The notes under the pieces: generated by a model
Told to the model about the DNA's origin: nothing
Database searches by the model: none
What the model saw: only the letters and a program-made list of their open reading frames with translations
Program-made: the position numbers and the translations under genes
Shown: piece by piece, positions 24,087 through 28,434 of the stretch
How positions within the stretch are numbered: position 1 is the stretch's first letter
Layout: each line of letters begins with the position of its first letter
Assembly (NCBI RefSeq): GCF_014904695.1
Contig: NZ_JACXXN010000005.1
Coordinates: 186,001 to 250,000, forward strand
Source: Nostoc sp. MG11
Lineage (GTDB): Bacteria; Cyanobacteriota; Cyanobacteriia; Cyanobacteriales; Nostocaceae
Length of the DNA stretch: 64,000 bases
Reading direction: 5' to 3'

Positions 24087-24287
24087 TGCTCTCTATAAGG
24101 CTCTGCTGCGAATTCAAGAGGCGGAGCCTCGCAAACAAACACAGATGAACGCATATAATTAACCGATGTTTATCAATGTTCATCTGTAGTTCCTTTTTTA
24201 CTTATGCGCATTTTTGCAAGAAGTTTATTAAACACCAATCTCTTTGATTAACTTTCCTGCATATTCATAACGATGTACTGGAATTAG

Positions 24288-24584
24288 CTAAAAATCTAAC
24301 AGTAATCGCGTTTGATAGCGGAGAATATCTAATTGACTATTTAGTGATTCTAATTGTGCTAGTTTCTGCTTGGCATAGCGAGCAATAATTAAAATCTCTA
24401 GCAAATCATACAATTTATTTGTCATTCTATCTCCTAAATTGAATTTATGAGATTTAGGTAGGCGATTGAGAATTGGAACATACCAATGAATCAAATCATA
24501 GGTCTTTTGAATAATCGGTAATTCATCCATTATTGTTTTGGGAAGGCTATCAATTAGAAACTCGGTTTGTTGGATAATTGACAT
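24288..24584 (-). CDS. avd: Avd-like diversity-generating retroelement accessory protein (four-helix bundle)
   Basis: 98 aa from ATG. The sequence is all-helical, with [20 protein letters not shown], then [16 protein letters not shown], then [20 protein letters not shown]. This is the characteristic pattern of Avd proteins (accessory variability determinant), which form a pentameric barrel and bind the DGR reverse transcriptase. It is slightly short compared with the usual 110-130 aa. It lies about 170 bp downstream of a gene that ends in a DGR-type variable repeat, in the same direction, as expected for a DGR cassette. No reverse transcriptase frame follows; the next gene is convergent. It may act with a reverse transcriptase encoded elsewhere, or be a leftover. 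Confidence 0.72.
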
Positions 24585-24754
24585 CCTAAATCAAATGCGC
24601 TAAGCTTGAATAATACATTATACAAAATTAACAAGCAGTAAAAACAAGCTCATAACAACTGCTAACTATTCTCAAAAAAAAATTAGATCGCTCCGCTCTG
24701 CTTCGCTTACAGAGGGCAAAATAAAGAAGGGAAAAAGGGCAAGAGTACAAAGGG

Positions 24755-27700
24755 CTAGTAAGTCCTCGCCGTACCACCGCACACCACCCGAAACCCGATG
24801 TCGTCGTAGTCGATGTCTGGGTTGCCCCTGCCGCGATAAGCAGAACGGCAGTATCCAGGACTGTAGTCCCAAGAACCACCGCGCAGCAGCCGATAATGAT
24901 TATCATTGCTACTACCACTTATTAGCCAACTTAGTCCGTTATTTGGCGCACCCTTGTAACTATCGTGCCAATGGTCAGCACACCACTCCCATACATTACC
25001 GTGCATATCGTATAAACCAAAGGCGTTAGGTGGAAAACTGCCTATTGGCGTCGTTTTACCTAAAGATTGACCTTTTGGTGCAGAGGCGTATGTATTGGTT
25101 CCGTCGTAATTTGCTAACTCCGTCGTAATTGTCTCACCAAAATGAAATGGTGTTGTAGTCCCAGCACGACAGGTATATTCCCACTCGGCTTCGCTGGGCA
25201 AGCGGTACTCGCGTCCTGTCTTCTTGGAGAGTCTTTTACAAAACTCTATAGCATCATACCATGAAACGCCTTCTACAGGAAGGTTATCACCTTTAAAATG
25301 AGAAGAATCTGGTTTAAGTTCCCGCTCGACTTTAGCTAAAGAAGCGACTGCTTTCCATTGGGCTTGAGTAATTGGATATTTCCCCATGAAACAGTCTCTA
25401 ACGCTGACTTGGTGTTGAGGACGTTCATCGTCACTACTTCCTTTCTCATTTTCTGGTGAACCCATCAGAAACGTCCCACCAGGAATAGCAACCATATCCA
25501 ATGCGATACTATTTCCCAAATCTTCAGTGAAATATCTAGCTTGACTATTTTTTCTCTGAGTTTCCTGTCCCTGAGCGTTAACGGTGATAACCTCAAATTC
25601 CAAAAATGGCAGCGCTTTTTCTATTCTACAAACAGCAAATTTTCTAGCTAGTGCAGATAAAATTTCTTTGGTATTTGCAGAAGAATTTGAATACCACAAA
25701 CGAAACAGATACCCTAGTGGCGTTCCCCCTACATTTCCCCAAATACTAATTTGCACCCCCAACCCAAAGCGCCCTTGAGAATATTGCAGCCAAAGTTGTT
25801 CTAAAGTTTGAAGAGATTGACAATCAATCGACTCTATTGCAGCAATATCAAGCTCACGTTCTCTTTCTCGCCTAGCCATTTTAAATATTACTAACTCTGT
25901 TTCTTGGCTGGCTTTTTCCCACTCTGCTGCTGCGAGGTAATTGACAAGCTTGCTGAAATCATTAGGAACTAAAGCTCTAACTATTCGTATACCTTTTTTT
26001 GTGCTGCTTATATCGCTTGCTCCTATCGTCCAACATTCTAATCTCTCTCTAGCTGGATGCTCTTTAACTTCAGTTGCAGTCGGTAATCTATAATAATAAG
26101 CAGCCTTGTTCTCATCTTCATTCCTAATTAGCAATGGAGCATTTACACTGAGCCAAGTGCAAAACTCCAAAGCATTCTGATAGCTAATGCCAGTAATTAT
26201 ATGTTTAGCATTGCCAGACTGGAAACATTTTGTTGAATTTAACTGGTCGTCAAGAAAAAGTTGATATTCAGCATAAGTAATATAATTGCGGTCTATAAAA
26301 CATCTTCCATCAACGTCTAATAACTGATTCAGCCGACTGGATAGTTTGACTTTAGCAGCTATTTGAGCAATTTTTTGGTCTGAAGATTCTAAGCCTTCTT
26401 CTAGGATTTTAGTGAGTTTATTTTTAGTTTCTTTTTCTACTTTATTCGGATTCTCTTGTAAGCAAGAATACGCTAGAGTTAAAGACTTAACTTCTTCTTG
26501 TCCATACTTTTGCCAACGTTGAAGGGCTTCTAGAATCAGTCTAGTTATATTATTTACATCACTCAACCCAGCATAAAGATAAATAGTCTCCGCCCACTGA
26601 GTCACATGGAAATTTTGAATTAAAATATTTTCTTGTTTTAATTTTTCTACCTGAACAGCGGCTAAATATTCTTGAAAACTCAAATGAGCAAATTCATAAC
26701 TCCCCTGTTCTTTTTCGACAAGTAAGCCAACATCATTTTTAATAGTCTCTAGCCATTTTTCAGGGGTAAGCGTATTCCCTGCTTCTTGCTCTAATTTGTC
26801 TTTAATTAGCAATTTACCTGCTTCTAAGGTGAACTTTTGAGTTCCCCGCTGCATCAAATTTAGGGCAATTAACTGGAATATCGACTGATTTTGTTGGGCA
26901 TTGAGAGGCAGCCGAATTCTTTTAACACTTGGTCTTCTACCTAACAAAACATCACAAATTTCTTTATACAGTTCAACTCTTTTGCCTGGCAAAGTATAGT
27001 CTAAGTAGTGAACTGTCGCAATCATCGTCACCAGCAACGGGTTGCTTGCCATCTTGCGGATAGTTGGATTCTGAAGTAGTGCTTCTATTAGCTCGTCCGC
27101 TTCTTGTTGAGCTTCTTGTTGCACCGTCAGCGATTTGCGTCCTTGTTTCTGAATTTTTGTTTGCAAATACCAGCCTTGGATAAATTGCTTCATCTGCGCC
27201 AGAGTAAAAGGCTGGACTTCTAGCACTGTATTCACCTTCTCACCCAAAATTTCGCTCTCGCTTTCATAGCCGTGGCGACGAGAGGTAAGAATAAAGGTAG
27301 ATTTAGGATATTTCCCCATTTGCTGCGTCACCCATCGGCTCACAGTAGAACGTTCGCTATCATTGGCGACTTCATCCAATCCATCCAACATCACCAAACA
27401 CATACCGTTATTTAAGCGGTTCTCGAACCAATCAGTAGGTAAATTGACTTTCGCAAGCAGAGGTAGAAGTTTGATTTGCTCTTGAATGAGTTCGTTAAGA
27501 CTAGGAGGTTCTGGCTTGATGAGCATTTCGCGCACATCCCGCAAACGCAAAAGCACAGGAATCAAGTTAGGAGCTTTATACTTGCGGTAAGCTTTGCGAG
27601 CGTAGGTTAGAGTAATGTACTGTAGGAGGGTAGTTTTACCTGAACCTGATGGTGCAAGTATGGCGATACATCGTTGCTGAGAATTTGGGGTTAAGAAATG

Positions 27701-28039
27701 CCAAATTTCATTACCTTGTTGGGTATCTGGTTGATTTTTTGCAGTAATCCCTCCAGAGATATTCCGGTAGCTTTCACTCGCTACTTTGAGCGGAACAAAT
27801 ACATCTTCTAGATTCGGTGTCGTTGGCGCAAGATTGAATCCTTCAGTTTTCAACGCAATATACTTATCTATTAAGCTTTCATAATATTTGTTCTGAAACT
27901 TGGACAGCTTCCAACGCAGTTTGTTAGGTAACTTGTCAGCTTGTGTCAAAACAAATTTTGCCGTTGTCTTACCGCGTTCATTGACTCCTGCTTCCATTTC
28001 TTGCATGAAGCCTTCGCTGAACTTAGCCCATAGAGACAA
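24755..28039 (-). CDS. NACHT NTPase with C-terminal FGE-sulfatase (C-type-lectin-like) domain; DGR target protein
   Basis: 1094 aa if started at the TTG at 28039. The NACHT P-loop is SGSGKTT (residues 131-137) and Walker B is VMLDGLDE (216-223). A helical region follows, then a degenerate FGE-like block (about 570-690, with TYAEYQLFLDD and YYYRLPTATEV), and a full formylglycine-generating-enzyme-type domain from about 848 to the end (VAIPGGTFLMGSPENE, YRLPSEAEWEY, GLYDMHGNVWEWCAD, LLRGGSW). The final 40 residues form the hypervariable ligand-binding face used by DGR targets. Upstream, the same frame continues to an ATG at 28174 but is broken by TAG at 28135-28133, so the ancestral protein was about 45 residues longer. 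The architecture suggests a STAND-type signalling receptor with a retargetable sensor. Confidence 0.85.
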   Translation of the reverse strand: MSLWAKFSEGFMQEMEAGVNERGKTTAKFVLTQADKLPNKLRWKLSKFQNKYYESLIDKYIALKTEGFNLAPTTPNLEDVFVPLKVASESYRNISGGITAKNQPDTQQGNEIWHFLTPNSQQRCIAILAPSGSGKTTLLQYITLTYARKAYRKYKAPNLIPVLLRLRDVREMLIKPEPPSLNELIQEQIKLLPLLAKVNLPTDWFENRLNNGMCLVMLDGLDEVANDSERSTVSRWVTQQMGKYPKSTFILTSRRHGYESESEILGEKVNTVLEVQPFTLAQMKQFIQGWYLQTKIQKQGRKSLTVQQEAQQEADELIEALLQNPTIRKMASNPLLVTMIATVHYLDYTLPGKRVELYKEICDVLLGRRPSVKRIRLPLNAQQNQSIFQLIALNLMQRGTQKFTLEAGKLLIKDKLEQEAGNTLTPEKWLETIKNDVGLLVEKEQGSYEFAHLSFQEYLAAVQVEKLKQENILIQNFHVTQWAETIYLYAGLSDVNNITRLILEALQRWQKYGQEEVKSLTLAYSCLQENPNKVEKETKNKLTKILEEGLESSDQKIAQIAAKVKLSSRLNQLLDVDGRCFIDRNYITYAEYQLFLDDQLNSTKCFQSGNAKHIITGISYQNALEFCTWLSVNAPLLIRNEDENKAAYYYRLPTATEVKEHPARERLECWTIGASDISSTKKGIRIVRALVPNDFSKLVNYLAAAEWEKASQETELVIFKMARRERERELDIAAIESIDCQSLQTLEQLWLQYSQGRFGLGVQISIWGNVGGTPLGYLFRLWYSNSSANTKEILSALARKFAVCRIEKALPFLEFEVITVNAQGQETQRKNSQARYFTEDLGNSIALDMVAIPGGTFLMGSPENEKGSSDDERPQHQVSVRDCFMGKYPITQAQWKAVASLAKVERELKPDSSHFKGDNLPVEGVSWYDAIEFCKRLSKKTGREYRLPSEAEWEYTCRAGTTTPFHFGETITTELANYDGTNTYASAPKGQSLGKTTPIGSFPPNAFGLYDMHGNVWEWCADHWHDSYKGAPNNGLSWLISGSSNDNHYRLLRGGSWDYSPGYCRSAYRGRGNPDIDYDDIGFRVVCGGTARTY
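24779..24901 (-). other. DGR variable repeat (VR) at the 3' end of the NACHT-FGE gene
   Basis: This covers codons 1047-1087, encoding the segment from LLRGGSW to the final GFRVVC. Codons at lectin-face positions are GAC, TAC, GGC, AAC, ATC and similar: they share a final C and differ only in the first two bases, as expected when AAC template codons are randomised at adenines. Conserved scaffold codons (RGGSW, CRSA, IGFRVVC) lie between them. The GC-rich end just before the stop is where DGRs keep their initiation-of-mutagenic-homing site. No matching template repeat is in the window. Confidence 0.75.
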
Positions 28040-28434
28040 GCCAGCAGTTACCGCCGCTGAGATAATAGCATTTTTGCCTTCACCATTGAGGAGAAAATGA
28101 CCCGTAGTCGCACCAGCAACACCTGTAGGAAACTATTTGACTAATTCAGTAAGCCATTTTGGTGATTGCTGCATTGTTAAACAACCGGGTTAATAAAATT
28201 TAGGAGTGAGCCAGGGTTTTTACCTAAATCAGCCCAAAAATTCGTATATTTACCATATTATAAAGCTAAAGTCTCCATAAACTGCTTAAATAAATATGAT
28301 TGCACTTACCAAAGCTGAGTATTGATCACGGATGTGGAAAATTTGTAATTGATAAAGTGCGTAGTTTACCGCCGTAGGTATTGCTCTCTCAAAACTTTCC
28401 CTAAAACTAAAAATTTCCGAGAAAAATAGACATT

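Follow-up and report, generated by a model that had tools for sequence, protein, structure and literature searches.

A former NACHT-GUN4-lectin target of a diversity-generating retroelement in Nostoc sp. MG11, most likely a relic

A stretch of 64,000 nucleotides from Nostoc sp. MG11 (the window) carries what are, with a probability of roughly 85%, the remains of a cyanobacterial-type diversity-generating retroelement (DGR) cassette, in which a former NACHT-GUN4-lectin DGR target is now most likely a relic whose diversification has stopped. The features concerned are listed below, with G, C and L numbers used as handles for genomes, contigs and loci, respectively.

24223–28239, no strand assigned: segment of about 4.0 kb with the variable protein gene and avd, absent from the syntenic site in G003 and also missing in G002
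24755–28039, minus strand: NACHT-GUN4-FGE (C-type-lectin) gene, the DGR variable protein; open reading frame as listed, TTG start
28172–28174, minus strand: ATG where the family has its conserved start (MQQxPKW...), judged by N-terminal sequences of relatives including L150, L151 and L158
28133–28135, minus strand: in-frame TAG stop, the 14th codon counted from the conserved ATG; relatives L150, L151 and L158 are open here
27170–27667, minus strand: NACHT NTPase domain, residues 125–290 (Pfam)
25991–26299, minus strand: second, degenerate stretch resembling FGE; approximate position, carried over from the relative L154
25721–25963, minus strand: GUN4 domain, residues 693–773 (Pfam)
24782–25498, minus strand: FGE-sulfatase/C-type-lectin domain, residues 848–1086 (Pfam and 2y3c match)
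24779–24889, minus strand: variable repeat (VR), 37 codons, LLRGGSW to VVC, from adenine versus non-adenine differences to the L088 template
24288–24584, minus strand: avd (DGR accessory protein), 98 codons (NCBIfam and Pfam)

Pfam recognises FGE-sulfatase (4e-65), GUN4 (5e-18) and NACHT (6e-10) domains in the target protein, the NACHT NTPase scoring 39.6 bits against a curated cut-off of 26.7. An earlier, sequence-only reading had proposed a lectin fused to a NACHT NTPase, and had regarded the FGE-type C-lectin fold as typical of DGR targets; both points hold, the latter through a match to the solved DGR target TvpA (2y3c, E 5e-24), and the GUN4 domain placed between NACHT and lectin is a correction to it. 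PADLOC returned a single match for the protein, PD-T4-6, which covers the GUN4 part only (residues 680–774) and does not establish a role in defence. For the lectin, an AlphaFold model from the single sequence reached a pLDDT of 34.8, and nothing is drawn from it. The family of NACHT-GUN4-lectin proteins also has a degenerate second FGE-like domain between NACHT and GUN4; it was matched by the Pfam FGE model in L154 (residues 659–762, E 1e-6) and transferred to the window by eye via the alignment, the window protein itself giving no separate Pfam match there.

The ancestral gene probably did not start at the TTG at 28039, as relatives begin at an ATG corresponding to 28172–28174, which is followed here by the in-frame TAG at 28133–28135. 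The 45 N-terminal codons severed in this way are still recognisable in several relatives. Past the first stop, the frame of 1094 codons is intact, so that a shortened protein may still be produced.

On the evidence of its sequence, the end of the gene, about 37 codons, is a genuine DGR variable repeat: adenine-directed substitutions lie at the 3′ end of a C-lectin gene, as judged by a foreign template and an upstream control. The pattern had been proposed for the last 40 codons, at 24779–24901, and is present over the slightly shorter interval listed above. Codons ending in C make up 15 of the 27 after GGSW, compared with 149 of 1050 upstream in the target gene (Fisher 1e-6), and any upstream stretch of 27 codons holds a maximum of nine. 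Template comparisons, in which differences at template adenines were counted against those at other bases, drew on 34 template repeats and 58 target repeats from genomes of the family, the own genome and two plasmid records, gathered with regex scans that divergent repeats may escape. Most targets show 0–4 non-A differences from the template of their own locus. The window VR is best fitted by a template from another genus of the family (L088 in G063; L089 in G093 has the same letters), and VR and template disagree at 14 of 31 adenines compared with 5 of 80 other bases (Fisher 5.9e-6, an optimistic value as L088 is the best of 34 templates tried); the second best, L181 in G008, gives 15/32 and 6/79. 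Across 245 aligned upstream lectin codons of the window and the G063 target, by comparison, there is no adenine bias (59/223 adenines and 151/512 other sites differ). Third positions agree at 30 of 35 between VR and foreign template, and at 101 of 165 at identical residues of the upstream lectin. Together, the confinement of the adenine bias to the VR and the third-position agreement indicate that the repeat was most likely written from a template of the G063 type and had not merely drifted along with its gene. The proposal that all variable codons derive from AAC stands as regards adenine-directed change; an origin from AAC only does not, the G063 template having some AAT or GAA.

It has to be considered whether a DGR was ever involved, as selection on the lectin loops or a local bias for C-ending codons could in principle yield such a pattern, and the GGSW...GFR frame is common to FGE domains, including those of at least four genes of this genome (L023–L026) outside the two DGR-type ones. 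This is very improbable, being contradicted by the restriction of the adenine bias to the VR, by the third-position figures, and by the adjacent avd together with the template match.

The avd gene adjoins the NACHT gene on its 3′ side and was overlooked in the sequence-only reading. It exceeds the curated cut-offs of both NCBIfam NF033474 (DivGenRetAVD; 97.9 bits, cut-off 80) and Pfam PF22296 (bAvd; 53.1 bits, cut-off 40), and is the sole avd match in the genome. It terminates at an in-frame TAG (24288–24290), and homology carries on to about 24228. The target-avd order agrees with that of intact cassettes, that of G063 running target, avd, reverse transcriptase (RT), template. Of the 48 fetched loci in which an Avd was matched, those nearest to the window Avd are L090 and L181 (85% over 80 residues), followed by L087, L092 and L072 (84%), and L097 and L093 (81%). 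The templates of all seven start LLRGGSWNNNP[E/Q]NCRSA, the type best fitting the window VR. G063, which supplies the best template, has an Avd that ranks lower at 78%, and a single foreign DGR behind both Avd and VR was thus rejected. That the best VR template (G063) and the best Avd matches (G031, G008) come from different genomes counts against the relic reading.

Neither of the remaining parts of a complete cassette, an RT and a same-genome template, was found in the own assembly, which comprises 8.41 Mb in 238 contigs, is 99.86% complete, and includes the window on contig C194. Classification of RVT_1 profile matches, and a search with a cyanobacterial DGR RT as query, returned no DGR RT. 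The match on C194 is a group II maturase over its cut-off, that on C128 lies nearest the group II model (296 bits, cut-off 300) beside a Cas1 gene, and that on C175 is a broken piece nearest the same model. The cyanobacterial query reached 31% identity at best, with the C128 gene, and these RTs were rejected as DGR RTs, being group II maturase or group II-like. The C128 gene (L002:122-2322, minus strand) is a stand-alone group II-like RT gene adjoining cas1. BLAST with the VR and with the foreign template, and a template-RNA covariance model, likewise found no template fitting the window VR in the assembly. The covariance model located one template RNA in the genome, on C119, with a template of another type that was rejected as donor, 28 of 86 non-A bases mismatching the VR. 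A genome-wide search for an A-rich template copy of the VR and a DGR RT, as the sequence-only reading had proposed, therefore yielded neither in this assembly, and its claim of a rapidly retargetable sensor is not supported, given these absences and the stops in target and avd, which together make a relic the most likely state of the former target. The stop codons could be sequencing errors.

With 238 contigs, the RT and template may lie on a missing piece of the genome, and the gene could then still be an active remote DGR target, served in trans from a replicon missing from the assembly. Action in trans was the best explanation reported for some Thiohalocapsa loci in the text available from PMC10907252, and on C119 both template and structured RNA are still intact and fresh. 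Such a state is nonetheless improbable: none of the five genomes of the genus has a DGR RT among the matches listed, neither the two BLAST queries nor the RNA model gave a template matching the VR, the C119 template mismatches it as described, and both target and avd carry stop codons.

The preferred reading, that of a relic, was also considered against the other four genomes of the genus. G003 joins window position 24222 to 28240 with 19 bases overlapping, so that the segment is absent at this site, and the neighbouring flanks are 91–94% identical in G003 and 94–97% in G002. The avd stop sits near the segment edge, the sequence shared with G003 starting at 24222. For G004, alignment of the stretch fetched was limited to the downstream flank and 30-base matches, and the flank gene was unmatched in G001. 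A DGR RT is absent from all four among the matches listed, which extend down to about E 3e-14, so that short RT fragments may escape. No match to the NACHT part was found in them among the best four candidates scored per genome, a limit that undercounts relatives and makes the absence weak, and a related-locus search of genome contigs confirmed no relative.

Further relatives came from 27 NACHT loci of the family, picked from the better matches (four candidates per genome scored). A C-terminal FGE domain is found in 11 of the 27 (the GUN4 of L169 is below threshold, and the L158 gene is spread over two frames). In G005:C14 a NACHT-GUN4-FGE gene, avd and a truncated DGR RT lie side by side, showing that this architecture has been a DGR target in cis. 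Three loci of one genus (L152, L153 and L169) share 88–93% nucleotide identity before the lectin, 83–86% in the lectin upstream of the VR, and 70–73% in the VR. Ordinary third-position divergence among relatives, which the sequence-only reading had named as evidence against itself, is not what these three pairs show: relative to the body of the gene, their VR differences favour codon positions 1 and 2 (p 5.7e-4, 2.2e-5 and 9.1e-5). The fourth pair, L150/L151, whose VRs align with gaps, has no such excess (p 0.17) and counts against. In six genomes, the own included, no fetched template fits the NACHT VR, each having at least 11 non-A mismatches; this check covered two of three template-RNA matches of G083, and recognised none in L265, L266 or L188 that could serve as template. 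Template RNA is lacking from the window and the 11 fetched FGE-bearing loci, and an avd neighbours one of these 11 (L163). Orphaning may thus be the rule for this type of receptor.

These comparisons bear on the main alternative, in which the shortened NACHT-GUN4-lectin, made from a downstream start, is a receptor that no longer diversifies but still functions, retained for a single useful specificity. This overlaps the preferred explanation, differing only in that the gene still works, and is a real possibility, though one held with less than even confidence. The 1094 open codons speak for it, as do the VRs of relatives, likewise without a fitting template among those fetched, and the freezing of favourable variants has been proposed for cyanobacteria in the portion of PMC7517822 consulted. 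Against it stand the loss here of 45 N-terminal codons recognisable in several relatives, the missing gene at the syntenic site in G002 and G003, and the lack of a congener match among the best four candidates per genome. The gene is probably decaying in this genome.

The events leading to this relic can be modelled as follows. The original cassette would have held target gene, avd, RT and template RNA, with mutagenic homing rewriting the last 37 codons of the C-terminal C-lectin. The segment was probably either acquired by this genome, presumably by horizontal gain, or retained only here within the genus. The RT and template would have been lost at the 24222 edge, and stop codons gained in avd and the target N-terminus, ending diversification, although these steps may have followed another order. 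As for STAND proteins, sensing would be the task of the lectin and switching that of NACHT. The intact protein was most likely a STAND receptor, in which the variable lectin would bind a ligand, GUN4 would perhaps gate the response via tetrapyrrole binding, and the NACHT oligomerisation module would be switched.

Downstream of cyanobacterial DGR templates lies a conserved RNA with covarying helices, for example at L170:7080-7218 (plus strand). Its alignment of 23 sequences has 30 pairs, with 98.4% of cells paired and 16 pairs changed on both sides; it beats all of 500 shuffles on four of five measures, and 3/500 reached the fifth. Rfam gave no match in the four loci tested. The covariance model, run with Infernal's stricter filters, finds the RNA in 125 of 217 family genomes at E 1e-3. 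For 59 of the 102 strong carriers (E 3e-17 or better), the matches listed include a DGR RT or a fragment of one (at least 55% identity); for the other 43 they do not. A regex scan, which divergent repeats may escape, recognised no repeat upstream of the RNA in 7 of 43 RNA loci. In several genomes (L036:6394-6531 and L248:801-938, both minus strand, and similar) the RNA comes immediately after the repeat of the target, as though recombination had joined this repeat and the template; in G104 (L248) the end of the target gene is the N-rich template sequence itself.

The C119 locus (G000:C119:68340-68960; L022:8341-8961) belongs to these cassettes, with a caspase-FGE gene followed by a template repeat and the structured RNA, and no RT seen beside it. 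Target and template differ at 14 of 25 adenines and none of 86 other bases; this restriction to adenines suggests recent activity of some DGR RT in this lineage or its donor, which counts against the relic reading. At 13 loci, one of them C119, the starts of target repeat and template are 312–324 bases apart, too close for avd and RT to lie between them; beyond the RNA, 0.8 kb was covered at these loci. In all 13 pairs chosen among 16 loci, the template is more alike than the target gene and spacer, and similarity falls to 31–44% past the RNA. The G013 pair differs at 14 adenines and one other base in a genome without a PF00078 match, and non-A differences have accumulated to 13 in G161 and five in G188. 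Some genomes with C119-like loci do have a DGR RT elsewhere. Draft assemblies may conceal RTs, and fresh pairs may also be explained by recent RT loss. A wider view can be offered only tentatively, and is rather unlikely as it stands: NACHT-GUN4-lectin receptors would move among cyanobacteria as frozen, ready-diversified, template-less variants, and the RT-less cassettes of the same genomes (target, template repeat, structured RNA) would be non-autonomous DGRs, rewritten only when a passing DGR RT arrives in trans.

The window thus holds a clear example of a bacterial NLR-like receptor that was diversified and then lost its diversifier, with relatives in a similar state. This raises the testable question of whether DGR receptors are kept as fixed specificities once diversification stops, and the RT-less template-RNA cassettes suggest that cyanobacterial DGR activity may be supplied in trans, and may come and go.

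NACHT-lectin DGR targets, GUN4-containing targets and RT-less remnants have each been published separately, as far as the text drawn on here from PMC10907252 and PMC7517822 goes; in the open-licence literature no description was found of a NACHT-GUN4-lectin with avd left alone, nor of template-RNA loci without RT across the family. The VMAP ternary systems (Kaur et al. 2020, PMC7159879), in the part consulted, similarly tie FGS/C-lectin to DGRs and combine FGS domains with GUN4, which is interpreted there as a tetrapyrrole sensor; no MoxR-vWA or VMAP partner was noticed among the open reading frames listed beside the window locus. Treponema denticola TvpA (PDB 2y3c) aligns with the FGE/C-lectin through its variable C-terminus, but its 294-residue chain matches the lectin part only, and it belongs to another bacterium and another DGR. 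Closer are the NACHT/STAND antigen sensors of multicellular bacteria (Dore et al. 2024), where, in the sections of PMC10907252 used, NACHT is fused to diversified C-lectin (their DGR 3), the lectin is likewise proposed as sensor and NACHT as switch, and disrupted DGR loci and action in trans are reported. GUN4 is not mentioned in that main text, and the window locus differs in being orphaned in its own assembly. The cyanobacterial DGRs of Vallota-Eastman et al. (2020; PMC7517822), in the extracts consulted, have C-lectin targets fused to signalling domains, GUN4-like ones included, and remote targets; a paralogue in Nostoc PCC 7120, all3226, retains remnant TR-VR homology with no proximal RT, and Anabaena sp. 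90 has a degraded cassette. NACHT is not mentioned in the main text of that report, and compared with the systems it describes, the window locus has lost RT and fitting template from the whole assembly, whereas avd remains. In the cultured relative Nostoc punctiforme, active A-specific mutation is reported in the accessible part of PMC12691664, which makes such activity testable.
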